From the IMG/VR virus record IMGVR_UViG_3300010354_017786, positions 1 through 31,766 of that record: a stretch of 31,766 nt of DNA. The stretch is one strand, 5' to 3'. Under the pieces are notes generated by a model that saw only the letters and a list, made by a program, of their open reading frames with translations, was not told the DNA's origin and did no database searches. The stretch is from a virus. This document shows positions 1-27,560 of this stretch, in pieces; position 1 is the stretch's first letter, and every line of letters begins with the position of its first letter. The position numbers and the translations under genes were made by a program.

Positions 1-3000
1 GAGGCAAAGCCAGTATCATCTGCCGCCATATATAGATCGTCTAAAGTGTCTTCATCTTTGCGAATCTGTTTGGCAGTTGCATTTGCCTCACTGCGACTCA
101 TTCGGTAACGCTGCATCAAGGTTTTCTTGAGTTCCTCGTCATCCATTTGGGTGTAGTCCATGAAGTACTCGCCGTACTCAGAGTCAAGGTATCTCTGGAA
201 GGATTCCACCTCTTCTTGTGGGGTTGGATCAGTCAGCAATCTGTCAAGACTTGAACGTGAGGCAAAGCCATCAGAAGACCAAGCTTCACGAAATGCAGCA
301 ATGTGTGCGTCGTCGCCGTAACTTGAGCCCTCAGGGATGTAAGGTCTGGCTAGACCTATAAGTTTATCTTCAGGATCTACATCGGATAGCGAATCATCAT
401 AGAATCCCGATTCAATATCGCCATCCCAACGCCCTTCACCATCCCTATATGTATCGCCGTGGTTGTCGGCATATTCACTAATATCCTCAAAAGATGCAGG
501 CCCATTGAAAATAGCCTCGTATTGTTCAGAAGGAGTGAAATAGTCGTAAAGAGTGTTGCTCACCCAATCCGACCATAAAACTTCATCCGCTATCTCGCCG
601 CTCTCTATTGCTTCTTGAATTGCATCTACGATTTTCTTGTTTTCCTCGCTAAGGTATATGTAGTCTTTGTCCTCTTTGTAGGCACGTGAGGCAAAACCAT
701 CATCATCGAAGTAGTCCGGCTCGTCCGGCTCATAATTATTGGCGCTAACCATGCGATCAAAATTGTCATCTACCAACTCACTATAGAATCGGTCAAGTAT
801 TTCATTGACTGCTGTATCGCGAACATCACTATCTTCTGACAGATACCTCTCATACAAATCTTGTATTTCGGATTCGTTCAAAGAATTTCTTTGGCCGTAG
901 TTGTACTTTTCCAACTTCTCAAGTTCAAGTTCGCCCATACTAAGATCGTCTCTTAGGAATTCTTCAATAAATCCATCTGATAGTTCGGGTTCTGGTGGGT
1001 CAATAGGTGGTTCACCCATCCCTCGTGAAGCAAGACCAACTTCACGATTTTTTTCATCAGAGCCAAGACCGTATACACGCTTGTCGTAATCAGTCATTCC
1101 CTTGCCATCGCCTCGCAAGCTCGGACCCTCATCGGACATAATGTTGTGTCCTTGGCGACCAGCATACGAACGAGCCCTTATGTAGCCACGTTTTCTATTT
1201 GCCGCAGAAGGACTACCACGCATGACAGATGATGTAAGAAGTATTTCGTTGGCATGGAGAAGTTCGCCAGTTTCGGCATCTCTCACCGTAATGGTGTCTG
1301 GACCTCTGTTTTTGCCCTTGCGTGGACCCTTTGTGTATTTTCCATTTACAGAACCGGCAGCATCACGAAGTGCATCCACCGTGATGTTTTTGGATTCTGC
1401 TTCCATAATTTCATCAAGCGTTCCTTGCTCCATCACGATAGCGACATTGCGATTACGTACACGCTTGCCACCACGAGGTGGTTTTCTGGTCGGCATTTTT
1501 GGTGTCGCAACTGGTGCTGGGTCGCTCGCCAATAAATCTCGTTTTGCATTATCTATAATTTTTTTCTGTTGAGCAAGTTTTTCTGCTGATTCACCGTTCA
1601 GCCTCATGGCTTCAAGCAAACCCTCTTGTTCATCAATAAAACTTCGCAACTCGTCTCTTGAGTACTCTTCATCATCTTGTATTTCGCTTGGTGTTAATTC
1701 ACCCATTTTCTTACTGCCAAAGAATCGAACATCCTCGCCAGTTAACCGACGCACATCGTGGGTGCGCTTAACATCATTGATTGCTCGCCCCTTGCTTGAG
1801 GCCGATCTAACAGCATCGGCCTCTTCTCGGGTAACACCTGAGTAGACGTAACCTTTACCACCTGCATAGATCACCATAAGATCTTCTTTTTCTGGATCGT
1901 AAGAGACTTGCTCTACTGCCTCAGAACCACGAACATCAAATTCCTCAATATCACCATCTGTGTCAGTAACACCAGACCACTCGCTATCTCGGCGATATGG
2001 GTGTGCGCGCTTAATGTCGTTCATTGCGCGACCTTTGCTTGGTGCGGTCTTGAATGCATCAAGTTCGTCTTTATCAACACCTTCGTAAATGTAGGTTCCA
2101 CCATCTTTGTAGGAGACACGCATTTCTTGAGTGCTTGGGTTGTAGTCAACAGCCGTAAGTGCCGTTGAGTAAGTTACATCGATGGATTCAACACCTGGTA
2201 CATCGCCAGCCATGTCAAGTTCGCGTTTCGCTGCATCAAGTTCGCGGTCAAGTCGGCTTTCCTCATCATCATCTGTAATCTTGTCTTTGGCGGCTTGAAT
2301 TAAGGCCGCAATTGCATCTGTGCGGTTATCAAACTTCTGAACTGAAGTTGTTTCATAGGAGTCAGGTGTTTCTCTGTCGCCCTTATCTAGTTTTGCAACC
2401 CGAACCTCATACTTGCCAAAATCTGATACTCCAAGCGAGTATTGGGTAGTGTCATCGTTCGATGTCCAAGTAGCAACACCATCATCATCTACCGAGATCC
2501 GATCTGCATTGATTTCTAATGTCACATCTCTGCTAGCGCTATGTTCCGGATTGGCATAAACATCGTTAATTGCATTTATGATTTCTTTGCTTCGTGGTGG
2601 CTTTTCGCCAGTCAATGGCTTTGAAAGTCCAACAACTTCATCTGTTGTTGCTTTGCGTACATTTTTTCTGCGCTTTATATCATTGATGGCTTTACCAGCA
2701 CTCGGTGCATTCTCGAGTGCAATTGCATCGTCCATGCTGACATCCTCGTAGACATACATGTCGCCACGTCCATCTTCGCGCTTGTAGGCAACAAACAGAT
2801 TTCCTGAATCTGGGTCGTAGGAAACATAGTCAACAGCAGTGCTTGGCTGCATACCGAGACGTCGAGTTCTTGAGCCGACCGATGCAAAGCCATCTTCTGC
2901 GCCTTGTGCCTTTTCGCCAAATTGCGCCCTACGACGAGAATGAGCATCCGACATACGCACATAGGCGTTTTCGGCGTAATTCATCAAGCCAATATCTGGT

Positions 3001-6000
3001 CTTGTGTTTAGGCGACGACCATTCATTAGATCTTCAAGGTTGTGCCCCATTTCATTTTCTTCAATGAACTCTTGAAGGAATGAGTTTGCCCAATCAATTT
3101 GATCATCGTACGACAAACTGCCCCAATCGGTATTTTGCTTCAAGATACGTTGTTGAGTTTTATCTATCCAAGTTGGATCAGTATAGTTTGGCTCAATGCC
3201 AAGTCTCTTTGAGCCACTAGATGCAAAACCATCCTCTGTGATTGTTGGCATTCCTTCGCCGTTGAGATCTTCAAACTTTATTGGCCTGAAGCTCATATCG
3301 CGCTCAACTGCAGGAACCATTCCATTCACCTGTGCGCTAGCGAGTTCGCTTAAAGAAAAGTTACCCCACTCGTTTTCAAAACCTTCCACATAACCAAAGA
3401 AAGTATCTTCGCCGTCAAACTCAACTCCGTACCAAGTCCAATTGGAATATGGTGAGAAAAACTTTACTGCCAAAATTTTATCTTCGGTATCTACATCTTC
3501 TGTTGAGTAAAGTTCCGGCATTCTCTCACGGATATCTACTGGCATTAATTTGTGTCGACGCAACCCCTCGTTTGGTTCAGCAGGTCCGCGTGAGGCGAAT
3601 CCGTCATTGACCTTTGATGAACTTACATCTGTAATGTATTCATCCCTTCCAAAGAAGTTGAACTGATCTTCGTCGGTTGCTTTTCGTGCTTTTTTAATTT
3701 TCTTAAGAGCATTAATATGTTTGCCCTTGCTCTTCACAGTGGCGAGTTCTTCAACTTCTGTCATGTCTACATCTGAGTAGACGTACCAACCAATGTCGCG
3801 AGCATCGTTGTAAAGTTCTTCTGCGTAATCGTTAATTTGAGATGCAGACGCTGAACGATTTCCATCAGTAAGAATGGCTTCTGCTCGGTCAATATAAATG
3901 TCCCTATCTCTAGAAGATGCATCTTCCCAAGGTTTGCCTTTCAAGAAACCAACCATTAATTCACGAGAAGAGTCATCGTAGAGAATTCCACCTAGTGCTT
4001 TACTGCGAGGAGTGCGAACTCGATGTAATGATGCGAATCCTTCGGAAGAATTAACTGCGGCTCCGACTAAATCTGGTGCATCTACCTCTGGTGCTTTTTT
4101 GCCACCGTCAGATCCACCAAACAATTTACGAAGGTTTGGAGATTTTTCAAGTATGTGATTGATTGCCGCTGTTGCATCCTTGAATGCACGAGAAAGTGCA
4201 TCTGGGTCATCCTTCAACAACGATATCCAGCCCTTGATATAGGGAGCATGATCTTCTCTAAATGGAGCATCAATTCCGTGTGCGGCGAGGAACATGGCTG
4301 AACCAATTTCAGCAACAAGTTCTTCGTAGGCGCGAGTCTTGCTGTCGTTTGAATAATTTGCAACACTAGGTCTGTTAAGGCGCGATGCACCTCCGGTCCA
4401 GTGAATAGTTTCGTGTGCTAGTGATGAGTTCCACTCAAGAGCACCAACACCTTTTGAGAAATCGGGCATTGATACATAGTCACCAGTTGGCGAAAAGTGT
4501 GGTCCACTCATATTGTCAGTAACAACATTGACGCCAAGTTCCGAAATCGTATCTTCAAGAATTTTTATTCGCTGCTCTTCTGGTAGGTCGGCCGGAATTG
4601 CTCTGAGCGCCTCATCGCCACCATCTGCTTGGTCAATGTTAAATACTGTTGTTCCGCGGAACACAACGAATTCTTTTACGTTTCCGTCCTCGTCCTCTTT
4701 CTTGACTAGTTGAGGCCTAAGGATAGGAACACCTTTTTCACCTTTGCGAACTTGAGCGCCACGGGCTTTTAGTTGGTTGAAGCCTGCATATCTGCCGGTT
4801 TTGTAATCCGAATCTTTTGTTCGCATCATCAACCAGAAGGCATTAAAGCCCCTATATGGCTTACCAGTAGTTGGGTTTATGGGTAGTGTGTCGTTGCGCC
4901 ATGATGGCTTCCATGTTGCTGGATCAGCAGTTTCAAGTTCGGCAAGCAAACTTGTCCTAACACCTTCTACGAGTTCATTTAACTTGTCTTGCTTGACTTC
5001 GCCATCGTCATCACGACTAGCAAAACCAAATGGCTCACCCTGCGAGGCAAAGCCATCAGATTGCCTATTCTCAAGGTTGTCTGCTGATCCACTGAGGTAA
5101 TCGTCGTAGGCCTCTTGTGCGGCGGCTGGTAAAGCCTTACGTACATTGCCCTCATAATCGCTTACTGCATCTTCTAAATACTTATCCCACAAACCATCAG
5201 ATTCAACCCAGTAATCAGCAATTCTTTCTGCTTCGTCAGGATCTACATCATTGTTCTCTAGCTCATCTAGTAGGTCATCTTTAGTGAAACCATAATCACG
5301 ATATTTGTCGGGAACAACAAGTTCTCGTCCATCACGCGAGGCAAAGCCGCCCTCATCGTCATCAAAAGGAAGTTCGCCAACATATTTTTCTATTGCGCTA
5401 TCAATTTCGTCGTCCGCCTCAGCCTCCATAGCCAATTCAGCCATGGTTGGTCGGAAGCGCTCAGTTCTCTCTTCTTCTAATTCATCTCGTTCAATTCTTG
5501 CCGCTTCTTCTGCGTCTGCAATAGACTGGGGATCTTCTGTTTCTTCCTTTTCGGTTTCTCGACGCCCTCTATTTAATTCAAGTTCTTTTTCTTCTGCGAG
5601 AGTGTTCCATGCATCCTCGGCAAATTCACGAATCGCATCGTCGTACTTGCCGCTTTCCATGGCTTCAACAATTCCGTCATCACCAAGATTTCCATGTACG
5701 GCATACATATAGTCGTAATCAAGTTCTTTGATGAACTCGGTTTGATCGTCGTCGTCAAGTTCTTCCCATTTAGGATTAGGACCATAGGATTCACTTGATT
5801 CAATTAAGGAATCAAACTTTTCTTTGTATGCCCGACCTCGAGAAGCAAGGCCCTCATCGGTCAGTGGCGTTCTTGCTCTTGGTGCACTTGGAACTAAATC
5901 CGGTTTTGGTGCCTCTCGTTTTGCTGGTGGCACAAAGTCTTGCCCAAATGTTTCAGCATAGGAAGCGCGACGTTGAAATTCGTGTGAAACTTTTAAGAGT

Positions 6001-7670
6001 TCTTCATCAATTCTTTGCTTTTCTGCACCAGATGATTGTTTGCGAGCATTGATAAGTTTGTTGCCTTCTTTTGTAAGGTCAGCATCAGACATATCCCAAT
6101 ACTTGGCAAGCCCATCATTGGTAGGTCGGTTGTTGGCAAGAAATGCAAGATCTTCGCGTGTTTCTGGCTCTATCAAACCACCAAGAAGTGCTTCTTTGCG
6201 TTGTTCTGGTGTCCACTTATTCCTATCTTTCGGTAAAGAAACAGAGCGCGGTTTATCAAGTAGTGCATCCCCATTGCGTTTACGTCCACGAACATCTGGA
6301 AGGTCAAAACCTGGTTTTTTGATTGGGATGTATGGGCGTTGAAATGCGCTGCCGTCTTGAACAAAGCCGTCACCGTCGCCGTCAATTGCATATGGGTTAA
6401 ATGTTTGAGCAAGATCGCGAATTTTTCCGATTGCTTGTCCAATATTTCCACTAGCTTGACCAAGTGTTGCACCCAAGGCCTTTACGGCATTTTGTAGTGC
6501 ATCAAGGGCATTGGCAGTCAATGCTCCATCAATAATAATTCCCTTAGCACTTGGTCTCCCCACCAACTTGTGGTGACGCAAAACTGGGTTGACAAAATCT
6601 TTAGCACTTGCCATATACGATTCTGGCAACTCAATTAAGTGAGATATTTCGGATTTGCCAAACGGTGATTGGACCGTACTGTCAAACAAGTTCATCATTT
6701 CTTGCTGATCATCATTGCGATAAGCAATGCCACCATTTGGTACAACAACAGGAACACCTGGTTTTTGTTCAATGTTCTGCATTGGTTGTGGCTTTGGAGC
6801 ATCTGCTTCATACGGTTCTGGTTTCCCGAACATGAACTGACCACCCTCGTTATGGTAGGGAAGTCGATACATTGATGCTTTTCCATCTGACGTAGTGCGT
6901 CTAAATACAACTATGTTTTCAGTTGCATTAATAACTTCGATTTTAGAACCAGTTCGTTCGCTTAGTTCTGCTTGTAAAATATTTTTATCTGGTTGCGAAA
7001 GTTCACGCGACATTCCCTCTGCAAACGGGTTGCTCACACTTGAATCGTCTGTATATTTTTCAGGAGTAGCCACAACAACAATTCTTGGCATTTCATTAAC
7101 CAACGGAATCATTGGCATGCTTTCACTTTGCATTGGGATAATTGGCATGTGAGCTTTTTCGTCTGTCTTGATTGAAATAGTTCCAGTCAGTTGATTTGCG
7201 CCGTGAAGAACTGGAGAAACCTCATAAAGTTCTACTTCTTTAAGAATGTTTGCTTGAAGATTTTGATCAAACACTGAGTCAATTGTTTTGTATCCAATTG
7301 ACCACTCTTGGTCTTCTCCAAAAAAGGCAACTGTAGCAAATGCTTCTTTTCCTTTTTCGGATTGTAAATTAAATTGAACTTTTGCATAAAGACCACCAAT
7401 GCCAGCATTTCGCATCTTGGCAGGCAAGCGAGAGTCCCCAACTGGAACTTCGTACATTTCAAGAACTTTACCAATTGGGTCATTCCATGAATGTCCCCAA
7501 ACTACGCGTGGTTTTCTATGAGTAAGACTTTTGGCAAATGCGCCACTAATGACGATATCGCCGACTGAATCTTTGTTGCCAATTCCAGCAACGAAGCATT
7601 CAACTATTCCTTGAGCTTGGTCAACATTTACTTGACCATTGTTGCCGCTTTTGAAAAGAAGATTATCCAT
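1..7670 (-). CDS. Giant prohead protease fused to a polyvalent multidomain protein (partial, runs off left edge)
   Basis: A single minus-strand frame is open from ATG at 7670 to position 1, at least 2556 codons with no stop. Residues 1-165 form an S78/HK97-type prohead protease that matures the capsid: His60 lies in a GHSWNDPIGK stretch, there is a WSIGY strand near 123, and Ser152 lies in E-V-S followed by HGAN. Further on are a DGDGDG calcium-type loop (430-440), acidic helical stretches (610-870), an ArdC-N domain (about 897-1030), a zincin with HETIH at 1086-1090, four KTSC-like domains (about 1224-1337, 1604-1676, 1832-1896, 1914-1979) and DUF2958 (about 1377-1474). The rest to 2556 is unrecognised, much of it acidic. 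Twelve G[F/L]AS motifs punctuate it. The usual family member is a few hundred residues, so this is a very large fusion. The SD is weak (AGTAGG). It follows the portal after 93 bases. Frame and protease domain are firm; the roles of the C-terminal domains are inferred from family knowledge. Confidence 0.9.
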   Translation of the reverse strand, partial: MDNLLFKSGNNGQVNVDQAQGIVECFVAGIGNKDSVGDIVISGAFAKSLTHRKPRVVWGHSWNDPIGKVLEMYEVPVGDSRLPAKMRNAGIGGLYAKVQFNLQSEKGKEAFATVAFFGEDQEWSIGYKTIDSVFDQNLQANILKEVELYEVSPVLHGANQLTGTISIKTDEKAHMPIIPMQSESMPMIPLVNEMPRIVVVATPEKYTDDSSVSNPFAEGMSRELSQPDKNILQAELSERTGSKIEVINATENIVVFRRTTSDGKASMYRLPYHNEGGQFMFGKPEPYEADAPKPQPMQNIEQKPGVPVVVPNGGIAYRNDDQQEMMNLFDSTVQSPFGKSEISHLIELPESYMASAKDFVNPVLRHHKLVGRPSAKGIIIDGALTANALDALQNAVKALGATLGQASGNIGQAIGKIRDLAQTFNPYAIDGDGDGFVQDGSAFQRPYIPIKKPGFDLPDVRGRKRNGDALLDKPRSVSLPKDRNKWTPEQRKEALLGGLIEPETREDLAFLANNRPTNDGLAKYWDMSDADLTKEGNKLINARKQSSGAEKQRIDEELLKVSHEFQRRASYAETFGQDFVPPAKREAPKPDLVPSAPRARTPLTDEGLASRGRAYKEKFDSLIESSESYGPNPKWEELDDDDQTEFIKELDYDYMYAVHGNLGDDGIVEAMESGKYDDAIREFAEDAWNTLAEEKELELNRGRRETEKEETEDPQSIADAEEAARIERDELEEERTERFRPTMAELAMEAEADDEIDSAIEKYVGELPFDDDEGGFASRDGRELVVPDKYRDYGFTKDDLLDELENNDVDPDEAERIADYWVESDGLWDKYLEDAVSDYEGNVRKALPAAAQEAYDDYLSGSADNLENRQSDGFASQGEPFGFASRDDDGEVKQDKLNELVEGVRTSLLAELETADPATWKPSWRNDTLPINPTTGKPYRGFNAFWLMMRTKDSDYKTGRYAGFNQLKARGAQVRKGEKGVPILRPQLVKKEDEDGNVKEFVVFRGTTVFNIDQADGGDEALRAIPADLPEEQRIKILEDTISELGVNVVTDNMSGPHFSPTGDYVSMPDFSKGVGALEWNSSLAHETIHWTGGASRLNRPSVANYSNDSKTRAYEELVAEIGSAMFLAAHGIDAPFREDHAPYIKGWISLLKDDPDALSRAFKDATAAINHILEKSPNLRKLFGGSDGGKKAPEVDAPDLVGAAVNSSEGFASLHRVRTPRSKALGGILYDDSSRELMVGFLKGKPWEDASSRDRDIYIDRAEAILTDGNRSASASQINDYAEELYNDARDIGWYVYSDVDMTEVEELATVKSKGKHINALKKIKKARKATDEDQFNFFGRDEYITDVSSSKVNDGFASRGPAEPNEGLRRHKLMPVDIRERMPELYSTEDVDTEDKILAVKFFSPYSNWTWYGVEFDGEDTFFGYVEGFENEWGNFSLSELASAQVNGMVPAVERDMSFRPIKFEDLNGEGMPTITEDGFASSGSKRLGIEPNYTDPTWIDKTQQRILKQNTDWGSLSYDDQIDWANSFLQEFIEENEMGHNLEDLMNGRRLNTRPDIGLMNYAENAYVRMSDAHSRRRAQFGEKAQGAEDGFASVGSRTRRLGMQPSTAVDYVSYDPDSGNLFVAYKREDGRGDMYVYEDVSMDDAIALENAPSAGKAINDIKRRKNVRKATTDEVVGLSKPLTGEKPPRSKEIINAINDVYANPEHSASRDVTLEINADRISVDDDGVATWTSNDDTTQYSLGVSDFGKYEVRVAKLDKGDRETPDSYETTSVQKFDNRTDAIAALIQAAKDKITDDDEESRLDRELDAAKRELDMAGDVPGVESIDVTYSTALTAVDYNPSTQEMRVSYKDGGTYIYEGVDKDELDAFKTAPSKGRAMNDIKRAHPYRRDSEWSGVTDTDGDIEEFDVRGSEAVEQVSYDPEKEDLMVIYAGGKGYVYSGVTREEADAVRSASSKGRAINDVKRTHDVRRLTGEDVRFFGSKKMGELTPSEIQDDEEYSRDELRSFIDEQEGLLEAMRLNGESAEKLAQQKKIIDNAKRDLLASDPAPVATPKMPTRKPPRGGKRVRNRNVAIVMEQGTLDEIMEAESKNITVDALRDAAGSVNGKYTKGPRKGKNRGPDTITVRDAETGELLHANEILLTSSVMRGSPSAANRKRGYIRARSYAGRQGHNIMSDEGPSLRGDGKGMTDYDKRVYGLGSDEKNREVGLASRGMGEPPIDPPEPELSDGFIEEFLRDDLSMGELELEKLEKYNYGQRNSLNESEIQDLYERYLSEDSDVRDTAVNEILDRFYSELVDDNFDRMVSANNYEPDEPDYFDDDGFASRAYKEDKDYIYLSEENKKIVDAIQEAIESGEIADEVLWSDWVSNTLYDYFTPSEQYEAIFNGPASFEDISEYADNHGDTYRDGEGRWDGDIESGFYDDSLSDVDPEDKLIGLARPYIPEGSSYGDDAHIAAFREAWSSDGFASRSSLDRLLTDPTPQEEVESFQRYLDSEYGEYFMDYTQMDDEELKKTLMQRYRMSRSEANATAKQIRKDEDTLDDLYMAADDTGFA
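1735..4005 (-). repeat. Four KTSC-like domains within the giant fusion
   Basis: Four copies share a YD-x(n)-L-x-V strand, a central Y-x-Y followed by a valine turn (YVYSDV, YVYEDV, YIYEGV, YVYSGV), and a trailing S-x-G-K/R-x-x-N-x-[IVL]-K-[RK] segment. They lie near 4005-3655, 2860-2645, 2175-1985 and 1930-1735. The central Y-x-Y is the hallmark of the KTSC domain, named from the C-terminus of some lysyl-tRNA synthetases and suspected, not shown, to bind RNA. The first copy carries an insertion of roughly 55 residues between the first strand and the Y-x-Y strand. The last two copies are close together, without a GFAS motif between them. Confidence 0.75.
3255..3545 (-). other. DUF2958-like domain within the giant fusion
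   Basis: Residues about 1377-1474 read as a DUF2958 domain: ILAVKFFSPYSNWTWY, then a GEDTFFGYVEGFENEWGNFS stretch, SLSELAS, and finally VERDMSFRPIKFEDL. The order of a W-T-W-Y strand, an F-G-x-V-x-G loop, a LSEL helix and an ERD-x-x-F end is what I know for this family. It is a small domain of unknown function often found beside or fused to ArdC-like and helicase-type proteins of mobile elements. It lies between the motif copies at residues 1357 and 1481, so a cleavage there would free it as a unit of about 120 residues. Confidence 0.7.
4110..4985 (-). other. ArdC-type N-terminal domain plus zincin metallopeptidase domain within the giant fusion
   Basis: After the motif copy at residue 882, residues about 897-1030 match the ArdC-N pattern: a WKPSWR segment, then PYRGFNAFWL, then TGRYAGFNQLKARGAQVRKG, then a VFRGTTVFNIDQ strand. 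Next comes a zincin-like domain with HETIH (4401-4415, residues 1086-1090), a WTGG turn, AYEELVAEIGSAMF as the probable third-ligand helix, and a YIKGWISLLKDDP tail. This pairing is the one known from ArdC antirestriction proteins and from the polyvalent proteins of phages and conjugative elements, which can act in the newly entered cell to protect incoming DNA. The domain assignment is strong. Activity and the moment of action are inference. Confidence 0.85.
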
Positions 7671-22739: not shown

Positions 22740-25700
22740 ATGGCCGATGAGCGCGTTGTAATAAAAATAGAAGTCAAGTCCGATGATAGGGATATTGACC
22801 GCACTCGACGCAAACTAGAACGTCTTGCTGGCGCACGTGATCGTGACAGAAAAAAAGAAGGTCTTGCCTCTCGTGGTCGATCTAATCGAGTAAGAAGAGA
22901 ACTCAATGAGGCTGGCGATCACTTTAACAAAGTCAGCAGAAAATACAAGAAAAGCTTTGACTATTTTGACAAAATGATCAAAGGGACAGGTTATGCCATG
23001 GTGAAATTCTTGGCGCTAACTGCAAAAGCAGTTGCTCTTGAGATGGCCGCCATGGGTGCAGCAATGATGCTCGTCCACGCCACATTTGCTACTGGACAAT
23101 TTATTATGAAAGCCTATAACGGCATGATGAAAATGACTGCGGCTGGAATGGCAGGAGTCGCCATAGCAGCAGGCACTGTTGCCGCAGCGCTTCGAGAACA
23201 ACAGGCGGCCATGTATGCATTTAGTGGTCGTGGTCAAGCAAAAGAATTTGGATCAGCACTAAATCAAACAAGAGTGCAAATGAGGGCTCTTACTATGGAT
23301 GCTTCGCTGGCATCTGTCGGTGTAGAAAACCTTACAGCCGCTTATGCAGAAGTGGTTAAAACTGGCGGAAGATTTACTGCCGCATCAACAGCATCTCTTA
23401 AAGGCTTAATGGATTTCGCAAGTGCTGGAATGGATCTGAAAGAAGGAACAAAACAAGCAGGTGCTCTCATTGCAACACTTCAAGACACCAAAAAATCATA
23501 CGGAGATGTAGTTAGCGCTGGGAAAAATTTCAGTCCCCAACTTAAAAAAGCATTAGAGGAATACGAAAAGGGTTCAGGAAAGAAAACCAAAGAAGGCCTA
23601 ACTGCTGCTATCAGATCTGGAGAACTTGCAAAACTTGGCGGGGTTGATGGTCAATTTGGGGCAGTATCTGGAACTTTAATAAACACACTTAAAGGCGAAT
23701 TTAATTTACTTCGTGGTCAATTTGCAGACTTTGGACAACAATTTCTTGGACCTATGAAAAAAGAAGCCAACGAATCATTTGCAATTATTTCTCGTGGACT
23801 TCAAAGACTTTCTGGCCAGGTTGGGGAATTTGGTAAAAGTGGTTTTATAGACAAAATTTCTGTTGTTGTTGATAAGATAACCAATTTTGTTGTTAGAACA
23901 ATGCGGGATTTTCTGCCCGACTCAGTGGGGATGTTTGAGCGAATTGGCGAATGGTGGGACAGGTTTACCTCTGGATGGAACAGGGTATTAGATGTTCTTC
24001 GACCATTTATTCAAGGAGCACGAGTATTTGAACAAATATTGAAGAATGCTTGGCTTCCGGTTTGGGAGCAGATAAAAGAAAACATGTACACATTCAATGA
24101 TCAGCTTTTAGCAAACCGACCAGAAATAGAAGAATTCGGAACAAACATTGGCAATTTATTACGCAAAGTTATGGAATATTTTAGCGAAGCAAGAAAGTTG
24201 TTCTTTCAGGCACTTCCATTCATTAACAAAGTCATTAAGGGGTTTACAAACCTCATTGAATTGTTTACTAGTTTCCTTGGTGGTTTTACAAAACTAACTG
24301 CCGGAATGGGCGGTATGGGTGGTTTTTCGGCACTAATCGGACTAATCGGTATGACTAGGGGAATGAAAAACACCAAGGGATATTTTACGCAAGCAAACAG
24401 TACTTCAGGTATTCGTGAAGTTGCCAACATGAATGTTAGATCGGATACGATTATTGTCAACGGGAGAGAAGTGGCTAAGTATGGGTCAGGAGCAAGAGGT
24501 GGGTCAACTGGTTTAGTTCAAAACAGCAACCGTATTCAAACTGCTCCCTATCCACATACTGGACCCTATAGAAGACCGCCCGGAAGTTCTTCGGGTGCTG
24601 GTTCTGGTGCTGGTTTTGCTTCACGCGGATCTAGTGGATCAACTCGTCGTCGCGGACAGTTTGTTTCGACCCCATACGGTAGAGCACAAGAAGGGCTAGG
24701 ACCCAACGGTGGCGCACTAATTACATCTGGTCCAAACAAGGGTCAGGAAGTCTTTACCCAAAATGTGCGAGGACAAGCAGTCACTTACATGCGCGACCCT
24801 AGGGGTCCTGGGTTTGGTCCAGCAGACAGGTCACAAGCCCCCGGCGTTTTCTATCAGAGTGGTGTTCGAGTGGATGCAAGTCAACGCATGCACGACAAAG
24901 GTTTTAAGAGCGTCACTGCGGCCGGACGAATCATAAATAGAAGAGAAAGATTCGCCAGATATTTTGGCGAAGGACAAAGACACGGAGCATCTGGGTATGT
25001 GACCGACACGCGAATGAAGAAATTCGCGGACAGAGTGATGGGCAGCAATACTGGATTAGGCAACCGAACCGTACTTGGTAAAGCATTTGACAATTATCGC
25101 AACAAGCAGGTAGCAAATAGTCAATATCTCGGTCCGCCAATTAATCCGAAAACTGGCAGACCTTTTGGACCAAAAACAAAAACATACCAAGCATGGGAGT
25201 TAACCACAAATAGAGCCTATACACCACCCGACCCCAACAGCATGAGGGGAAGGTTTTTTAACGGTCGTCTTTATAATAACTGGCTTTCATCAACATCAAA
25301 TATTACTGCTGGAGGACCAAAGCAACTTGGCAAAAACAACCCTTTCAGACTTGTTCAGAGTGCTCGCTTAGGGGCTAGGGGTGCTAGACAAAGCCGATTA
25401 GGAGGGATGATTCTTGGCAATGATGAAAGAAAAGGTTTTAGGGGTTCTGCAATGGCAGGGATGGGCGTAGGTATGGGGCTGGGCGCACTTGCAAATTCTG
25501 GAATGGTTTCAGAAGAAGCTCAAGGTTTCTTGAGTGCTGGTGCAATGATTGGAATGATGAACCCACTTGCTGGATTAGCTATAGGTCTTGGCGGTACTGC
25601 ACTAACTGCAAAAACAGAGGCCGGTGGAGCTGTTTCTGGTGCGGCTGCTGGTGCCACAATTGGAACGATGATTGCTCCTGGCTTCGGAACTGCCGCAGGT

Positions 25701-27560
25701 GCAATAATTGGCGCCGCAGTAGGTGGATTGATGGGTCGGGCAAATAGAATCAAAGATGAAAAAAATAAATCACGCAAAGCATTTGAAGGCGTCTTTGACA
25801 ATTTAGTTACACAAAACATGATTGGAATCCAACAAAGAATGTTGGAAAGTGGTGGTGTTGGTAAATCAGAAATAGTAAAAGCCGCTAAACGCGGTGGGCT
25901 CATAGATCAAAGTGCGAATCAAATTATTGATACATATCGAAAAGGCGGAAGTTCTGCCGACGTAATTGCAATGCTTGAAGCCAATCAAAGCCGATATGGT
26001 CTAGATGATAAGCAAATAAAAGCCATGAAAAAACAACCAGCCGAGGTTGTAAAAGCAATAGACAAAGTGGAAACAAGACAAAAAGCACAAAATCATTTGA
26101 CCGATGTTTATGCGAAAAGATTAGATGCACTTACGAAAATTACAGGCAAATCAGAACAAGAAGTTGAAACAATGGCAATGACGATGGGTGTTGATCTTTA
26201 CGATGCCACTGTTGATTTTAATGATGTTGTAGAGAAACTAGGCGTAAGTGTCGCCAAAACACGAGAGCAACTTCGCGGAATGCAGATGGATTTGGCCCTA
26301 AAAGGTCTTGATCAATTCTCTAAAGATTTAGAAAACTTAAATGCCCCAGAAATTCTTGATGAGCAGGCGAGAACATTTAGAGATATGGCAGATGCTGCGG
26401 ATGGAAAAATATCAGATTCAGAATTTGCAGAATTCATAAAAGGATTTGTTCCGAACATGTTGAATTTTGGGGGTGGCGGCCTACAGGGAACAATTGAGCA
26501 AATCAAACTGTTTGGACGAGGTGGTACTGAGTTCGGTAGAAAAGAAGGCGACATAACCAGTCCGTTTTACGGAATGGAAGATTTATTCACAAATAGTTTG
26601 GCTGGTCAGAGATATCAACAATACCTAGATACAACATACCAGCAAGGTGTTGGTATTGCTGGTGGTCAAATTAATGCAAAACTATTTGAGTCTCAAGCTG
26701 CTGGCAGGTTCTTAATGGACACAGATAGGTTTAGTGAGCAACTCAGCCTCCTTGATCTAGACATGCAGAAACAATTAATAAGCGATTTAGAAAATGGCTT
26801 ATTCCTTGGTGGCGACATGACTGAATACACCAGAGGCGACTTTGCGTCAGAACTATCTAAATACGGAATAGATGTAAATAGATTAAATCTACGAGGTATT
26901 GAGGATGATGATGCCCTAAACATAGCCTTGGATAAAATGCCACAAAACCTAAAAGATACTTATGGTGCAATAATTGAATTGTTTGGTAATTTTTTTGATA
27001 CGCGGGATTCAACAAAACCTGAGTGGATGACAGATGAATTTATAAAATTCGTTGCAAAGAACAACGATACATCTAGTCCAAGAGGTAAGGGAGTCGGCGA
27101 TACGACATCATCGCGCCTATCTCAAACGATGGGTCGCCATGCGCAAATGGATGGAATGCTGACCGGCAAGCGAACCGTAACATCTGCTTATCGCACCACT
27201 GGTCTTGGCTCAATGAATTCAGATCACATAACTGGCAGAGCGTATGATTTGGTTGGTCAAAATTTGGGCGCTTACCAAAGACTAGCTACCGCAAATGGCG
27301 GATTCGCTGAGTTCCACGGTTCAAATGCATCTAGACATTTACATGTGGTTCCAAGACTAAGCGCTTTTGGTGATACTGGATCGGTGTCATCAAAGATAAT
27401 GGCAACACCAGTAGTACCAACAACATCTAATCAAGGTAATTCCGGTATTACAATTTCACAAAATATTTACGGTTCGCCAAATGCATCTCCAGATCAAATA
27501 GCCGATGCTGCTGTAAGGAAATTGAAACTAGCTCTTGAAAATGAAAGACAGCGACGATGA
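22740..27560 (+). CDS. Tape measure protein with C-terminal M15-like peptidase domain
   Basis: This 1606-residue protein sets tail length and is ejected before the DNA. It begins with a charged region (1-80), then long Ala-rich hydrophobic helices (84-145), and has a second Gly/Ala-rich hydrophobic tract at about 904-1001 that could form a membrane pore. The region 600-900 is Gly/Ser/Arg-rich. The end (about 1478-1545) reads as an M15-type D,D-peptidase: SAYRT, then SDHITGRAYD with His1496 and Asp1503 as metal ligands, and SRHLHVVP with His1533 and His1535. It would open peptidoglycan during entry. Two G[F/L]ASR motifs (41-45 at 22860-22874 and 625-629 at 24612-24626) match the motif in the giant protease fusion. 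A GGAG ribosome-binding site precedes the ATG. Confidence 0.93.
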   Translation: MADERVVIKIEVKSDDRDIDRTRRKLERLAGARDRDRKKEGLASRGRSNRVRRELNEAGDHFNKVSRKYKKSFDYFDKMIKGTGYAMVKFLALTAKAVALEMAAMGAAMMLVHATFATGQFIMKAYNGMMKMTAAGMAGVAIAAGTVAAALREQQAAMYAFSGRGQAKEFGSALNQTRVQMRALTMDASLASVGVENLTAAYAEVVKTGGRFTAASTASLKGLMDFASAGMDLKEGTKQAGALIATLQDTKKSYGDVVSAGKNFSPQLKKALEEYEKGSGKKTKEGLTAAIRSGELAKLGGVDGQFGAVSGTLINTLKGEFNLLRGQFADFGQQFLGPMKKEANESFAIISRGLQRLSGQVGEFGKSGFIDKISVVVDKITNFVVRTMRDFLPDSVGMFERIGEWWDRFTSGWNRVLDVLRPFIQGARVFEQILKNAWLPVWEQIKENMYTFNDQLLANRPEIEEFGTNIGNLLRKVMEYFSEARKLFFQALPFINKVIKGFTNLIELFTSFLGGFTKLTAGMGGMGGFSALIGLIGMTRGMKNTKGYFTQANSTSGIREVANMNVRSDTIIVNGREVAKYGSGARGGSTGLVQNSNRIQTAPYPHTGPYRRPPGSSSGAGSGAGFASRGSSGSTRRRGQFVSTPYGRAQEGLGPNGGALITSGPNKGQEVFTQNVRGQAVTYMRDPRGPGFGPADRSQAPGVFYQSGVRVDASQRMHDKGFKSVTAAGRIINRRERFARYFGEGQRHGASGYVTDTRMKKFADRVMGSNTGLGNRTVLGKAFDNYRNKQVANSQYLGPPINPKTGRPFGPKTKTYQAWELTTNRAYTPPDPNSMRGRFFNGRLYNNWLSSTSNITAGGPKQLGKNNPFRLVQSARLGARGARQSRLGGMILGNDERKGFRGSAMAGMGVGMGLGALANSGMVSEEAQGFLSAGAMIGMMNPLAGLAIGLGGTALTAKTEAGGAVSGAAAGATIGTMIAPGFGTAAGAIIGAAVGGLMGRANRIKDEKNKSRKAFEGVFDNLVTQNMIGIQQRMLESGGVGKSEIVKAAKRGGLIDQSANQIIDTYRKGGSSADVIAMLEANQSRYGLDDKQIKAMKKQPAEVVKAIDKVETRQKAQNHLTDVYAKRLDALTKITGKSEQEVETMAMTMGVDLYDATVDFNDVVEKLGVSVAKTREQLRGMQMDLALKGLDQFSKDLENLNAPEILDEQARTFRDMADAADGKISDSEFAEFIKGFVPNMLNFGGGGLQGTIEQIKLFGRGGTEFGRKEGDITSPFYGMEDLFTNSLAGQRYQQYLDTTYQQGVGIAGGQINAKLFESQAAGRFLMDTDRFSEQLSLLDLDMQKQLISDLENGLFLGGDMTEYTRGDFASELSKYGIDVNRLNLRGIEDDDALNIALDKMPQNLKDTYGAIIELFGNFFDTRDSTKPEWMTDEFIKFVAKNNDTSSPRGKGVGDTTSSRLSQTMGRHAQMDGMLTGKRTVTSAYRTTGLGSMNSDHITGRAYDLVGQNLGAYQRLATANGGFAEFHGSNASRHLHVVPRLSAFGDTGSVSSKIMATPVVPTTSNQGNSGITISQNIYGSPNASPDQIADAAVRKLKLALENERQRR

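Follow-up and report, generated by a model that had tools for sequence, protein, structure and literature searches.

A repeated G[F/L]AS motif bounds shuffled cassettes in a phage cargo polyprotein and is a putative maturation cleavage site

What separates the domains of a phage protein that runs to thousands of residues, and why would the same few residues recur between them? These questions are raised by a stretch of viral DNA, IMG/VR record IMGVR_UViG_3300010354_017786 (positions 1 to 31,766; all 31,766 nucleotides are hereafter the window), whose minus strand carries a long open reading frame (ORF), here called the cargo polyprotein, in which the motif G[F/L]AS is repeated. We interpret this motif, at a probability of about 0.6, as a maturation cleavage site whose most likely reader is the chain's own S78 protease domain, inferring cleavage from patterns of sequence shared among related phages. 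These relatives were obtained from an IMG/VR portal scan that yielded 80 loci, with 25 contigs read whole or nearly whole. In literature searches, neither the motif nor the polyprotein was found described.

The motif in the polyprotein and other large proteins

An initial annotation of the window had listed twelve motif copies, and all of them are present on the minus strand of the polyprotein ORF, as 11 full copies of G[F/L]AS and one copy cut by the window edge (Table 1), whose fourth residue is taken as Ser because the last two coding-strand bases are TC and the codon is thus TCN. The cassette homologous to this edge region (family F6) is motif-bounded in relatives. Shuffling the polyprotein 2,000 times gave a mean of 0.12 copies and a maximum of 2 against the 11 observed, and none occurred in the other 6,170 amino acids (aa) of window ORFs, except for the tape-measure protein (TMP), which carries two copies that the annotation had overlooked. 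Codons vary between copies while residues persist, as had been remarked (Gly as GGA, GGC or GGT, Phe as TTT or TTC, Ala as GCA, GCC or GCT, and Ser as TCN plus one AGT), so conservation acts at the protein level; a DNA-level repeat was ruled out by these same codon differences.

Across nine genomes, of which G009 and G019 are near-copies of each other, ORFs of 1,400 aa or longer total 60,552 aa and hold 165 copies, against 3 in the remaining 103,407 aa, an enrichment in the large proteins. Complete relatives of the window polyprotein span 3,772-5,494 aa and hold 12-23 copies each, while further copies lie in a second giant ORF (six in the 3,152 aa of G003, five in the 2,069 aa of G007) and in an ORF of 1.45 thousand amino acids (1.45-kaa). 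A short motif of fixed residues is thus common to the polyprotein, the TMP, the second giant and the 1.45-kaa protein, as looked for in a prohead-protease system. Its logo, built from 183 contexts, reads [DE](0.61)-G-[F 0.77/L 0.23]-A-S-[R 0.64]-[G 0.68]. The variants GFGS, GFSS and GLGS were enriched as well; in the same count GYAS, GIAS, GWAS and GFAT were not, and substitutes for F/L or Ser were not clearly enriched. The linkers flanking the motif hold more disorder-promoting residues (z 5.7), and in AlphaFold2 models (mean predicted local distance difference test score 44.8 with 7 sequences and 55.3 with 12) the motif copies fall in low-confidence stretches, as does most of the modelled fragment.

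Domain cassettes between motif copies

The copies had also been described as falling at domain edges, and this agrees with our domain matches: ArdC-N and MPTase-PolyVal lie together between the copies at aa 882 and 1211, and DUF2958 between those at 1357 and 1481. The motif never interrupts a Pfam domain match, either in the window or in relatives (including RNase_T, GNAT, WYL and Sigma70_r4), and several effector-like domains, ArdC-N and MPTase among them, occur within one phage polypeptide, as in polyvalent proteins. Segments between motifs group into families that are common to different phages and differ in order (families followed a coverage rule, single-link clustering having merged all segments into one group). 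Cleanly bounded copies of the ArdC cassette are 325-329 aa long, and the cassette occupies aa 886-1214 in the window but 3258-3582 in G007 and 3187-3511 in G017; a 93-99-aa cassette was found at five different places, and a 67% alignment between G003 3720-3823 and G009 1305-1405 runs from motif to motif. In an alignment of the window with six relatives, gain or loss of DUF2958 coincides with that of one motif copy. Finally, 324 high-scoring segment pairs from two polyprotein groups crossed motif sites 78 times versus 334.5 expected, with 0 of 1,000 randomisations as low, a figure that serves as a guide and in which repeated KTSC matches are counted more than once. The motif therefore bounds domain cassettes that are gained, lost and reordered.

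As to further cassette contents, matches to RNase_T exonuclease, GNAT and WYL, and weak zincin-like ones, were found in the second giant ORF of loci L200 and L201, no match extending beyond a single motif-bounded segment. A Sigma-70 region 4 match also lies in a motif-bounded segment (L160:10729-18015, minus strand; G030 polyprotein aa 1693-1726), so the delivered cassettes may include a sigma-like factor.

Lineage spellings and the reader of the motif

Other lineages spell the motif differently, one spelling per lineage (PLGSRS, RGLRSST, RGMxSR, LSGSMS, ISGKMS), and each spelling is common to the polyprotein and other large proteins and, in several lineages, to the TMP at the corresponding site. 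Thus G026 has [PA]LGSR[SG] in its polyprotein and second giant (LGSR 17 and 4 times, respectively) and ALASRS at TMP site 1, and in G030 the polyprotein, two TMP sites (aa 42 and 576) and further large ORFs all read G[LMV]RS[ST]. Other lineages use RG[MF]xS[RS] (G012/G013), LSGSM (G020/G022/G023) and I[ST]GxM[SA] (G015), and a second scan added further spellings such as LRSSG, KLSSG and FSSGR. In most spellings [F/L/M]-x-S precedes an R, S, G or T, a shape that the [L/I][S/T]GxM types do not clearly match. Seven changes of motif type, the minimum, account for their distribution over the protease tree. Because one spelling per lineage is common to several proteins, we infer one trans-acting reader. 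Scored with lineage matrices built without TMP sequences, the TMP N-terminus best fits its own lineage's matrix in G000, G002-G005, G026, G030 and G022, with a borderline score in G015.

Lying at shuffled cassette borders, the motif might instead act passively as a flexible linker, or offer a homology hook for recombination of cassettes. This is very improbable: codons vary between copies and hence offer no DNA recombination site, the spelling changes in concert across different genes, and the motif is conserved in the unshuffled TMP, where its flanks are rich in indels.

The initial annotation had suggested that the resident protease cuts the chain at the motif, and this proposal is partly supported. 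A cleavage site is the best fit to the motif-bounded shuffled cassettes, the concerted spelling changes and the [F/L/M]-x-S shape, which is similar to known prohead-protease sites ([L/I]-x-E and A-x-E|S), whereas the resident S78 domain is a candidate cutter. It is a serine protease encoded in the head module, adjoining the portal (PF04586 match, E 1.5e-9), with a relative present in motif-bearing lineages. Several observations weigh against this reading. The major capsid protein (MCP), the classic substrate of such proteases, lacks the lineage motif in an alignment of 14 MCPs, with none at its delta-domain border, and the TMP, a tail protein, is not an obvious substrate of a head protease. 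Protease domains are 71-93% identical to that of the window although the motifs differ strongly, TMP site 1 of G010 and G017 (ALASKG) does not score significantly, and several proteins with the candidate packaging element described below carry no motif. Motif type also tracks descent among the phages, which makes any protein inherited vertically a possible reader.

The motif could be a processing site for some other protease, be it the chain's zincin MPTase-PolyVal, a host protease or one that acts after ejection into the host. Zincin MPTases have been proposed as processors of polyvalent proteins (Iyer et al., PMC5512222), the MCP's lack of the motif fits, and the TMP and the cargo probably have ejection in common rather than head assembly. 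We nevertheless consider this fairly unlikely: MPTase-PolyVal occurs in only 10 of 22 genomes, and the lineage-specific spelling suggests a phage-encoded reader. The zincin was rejected as a universal reader, as it was not found in motif-bearing G030, G012, G013, G015, G016, G020, G022 and G023, several of which are partial contigs.

A candidate packaging element and comparison with known systems

Upstream of the motif copies, the window polyprotein carries an element rich in DG repeats (Table 1). A hidden Markov model (HMM) seeded there matched 48 places in the genomes examined, usually one per chain, near the N-terminus or mid-chain of polyproteins and other large virion-like proteins, and no match was found in the TMPs of these genomes; the element resembles a calcium-binding loop. 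All 214 motif copies in the 29 chains that carry the element lie C-terminal to it (214/214), where 26.1 would be expected upstream. The element is a candidate packaging tag, and the order of tag, motif and cargo resembles that of targeting sequences removed after packaging. Other large virion-like proteins carry a second module with two cysteines (RCPxG...TD...C), for example at aa 191 of G003 60259..64626 and aa 117 of G003 65651..67621, and it recurs in many relatives. Most lineages examined have it, even some in which no motif was recognised, and in G003 and G004 it stands ~34 aa ahead of the motif; this module is possibly another packaging tag.

With this element in hand, the alternative that the annotation had raised, a tag docking the chain in the head, appears unlikely, because the TMP carries the motif (hence no head-loading tag) and the DG-rich element, missing from TMPs, is the better candidate for loading. 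More generally, a peptide that stays uncut and serves for docking or loading by binding an assembly factor would suit a linear motif this short and this strictly conserved, set in linkers prone to disorder, and concerted change fits any single binding partner. We still regard it as improbable, given that 11-23 copies per chain at cassette borders exceed what docking needs and that cassette gain or loss takes one motif copy along.

In the reading that we favour, the polyprotein opens with the N-terminal S78 prohead protease and a scaffold-like region. Next comes its single DGDGDG element, whose probable role is to direct the chain into the head during assembly, and behind it stand the effector-like cassettes one after another (ArdC antirestriction/zincin, DUF2958, KTSC and others). 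The linker motif [DE]-G-[F/L]-[A/G/S]-S-R-G would be the processing site, the cut probably falling just after the invariant Ser (with F/L as P3 and Ser as P1) or just after the residue that follows it. The chain would be packaged whole, its cleavage then releasing the individual proteins that are delivered to the host, and the TMP and other large virion proteins would be trimmed in the same way. For the wider proposition, that this phage clade delivers host-takeover proteins as a self-processing polyprotein (protease, tag and 10-23 swappable cassettes) whose cleavage code also applies to the TMP and drifts as one unit between lineages, we see about even odds. If true, a tailed phage carries a modular, RNA-virus-like effector polyprotein, individual delivered proteins could be read by rule from thousands of unannotated phage amino acids, and the differently spelled lineages offer a natural experiment on protease specificity.

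The internal proteins of phage T4 carry a capsid targeting sequence that is cut by gp21. Likenesses to T4 are a putative packaging element that precedes a short candidate cleavage motif, with P3 hydrophobic and P1 fixed, a motif present in several virion proteins, and cargo that would be ejected into the host. In T4, however, the cargo is separately encoded, P1 is Glu and the MCP carries the site, whereas here many cassettes share one chain with the protease, P1 would be Ser and the MCP has no site. In SPN3US, gp245 cuts A-X-E with Ser preferred at P1' and at several sites per propeptide (PMC10052503), and the phiKZ/SPN3US prohead protease gp245 with its E proteins likewise shows a lineage-specific motif (A-X-E followed by S) repeated in propeptides of packaged proteins, but this system has no polyprotein, uses P1 Glu and has reported substrates that are head proteins rather than the tape measure (PMC10052503). 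The polyvalent proteins of phages and conjugative elements (Iyer et al. 2017, PMC5512222) share the multi-domain pairing of ArdC-N with a zincin MPTase, and processing has been proposed for them; in contrast, S78 is N-terminal here and the motif separates cassettes.

Table 1. Features of the window discussed in the text (residue numbers refer to the protein that holds the feature).
Feature	Residues (aa)	Nucleotides	Strand	Remark
Cargo polyprotein		3..7670	-	2,556 aa in window, runs past left edge
Peptidase_S78 prohead protease domain	22-169	7164..7607	-	H60 and S124 invariant in 12 sequences
RFDPxAxDGDGDGxVQ[DE]GTxFERP-type element	409-458	6297..6446	-	candidate packaging tag
Motif 1, GLASR	607	5838..5852	-	
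Motif 2, GFASR	775	5334..5348	-	
Motif 3, GFASQ	873	5040..5054	-	
Motif 4, GFASR	882	5013..5027	-	
ArdC-N domain	902-1010	4641..4967	-	first half of ArdC cassette
MPTase-PolyVal zincin domain	1039-1162	4185..4556	-	second half of ArdC cassette
Motif 5, GFASL	1211	4026..4040	-	
Motif 6, GFASR	1357	3588..3602	-	
DUF2958	1381-1463	3282..3530	-	cassette motif-bounded, missing from some relatives
Motif 7, GFASS	1481	3216..3230	-	
Motif 8, GFASV	1594	2877..2891	-	
KTSC-repeat part of one cassette	about 1598-1980	1731..2879	-	three KTSC matches
Motif 9, GLASR	2212	1023..1037	-	
Motif 10, GFASR	2325	684..698	-	
Motif 11, GFASR	2468	255..269	-	
Motif 12, GFA + TC(N)	2554	1..11	-	cut by window edge
Tape-measure protein (TMP)		22740..27560	+	two further motif copies
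TMP site 1, GLASR (EGLASRGR)	41	22860..22874	+	ALASK, ALASR, GMRSS or LSGSM in other lineages
TMP site 2, GFASR (AGFASRGS)	625	24612..24626	+	GLRSST at aa 576 in G030

The nearest isolates, Gordonia phage Gray and Brevibacterium phage Cantare, give a hint only of the host. They share a homologous S78 protease, a contractile tail and a related terminase, but their protease forms a protein of its own (417-455 aa), encoded immediately ahead of the MCP, and no enriched shared motif was found in these genomes. Proteases 70-74% identical occur on Gammaproteobacteria and Phycisphaerae contigs of metagenome-assembled genomes (L274-L276), which look like phage contigs binned with them. In G014, where we found no convincing motif, large ORFs of equal length and the same spacing stand at both contig ends (858..4472 and 134559..138173), suggesting a long terminal repeat or assembly redundancy.
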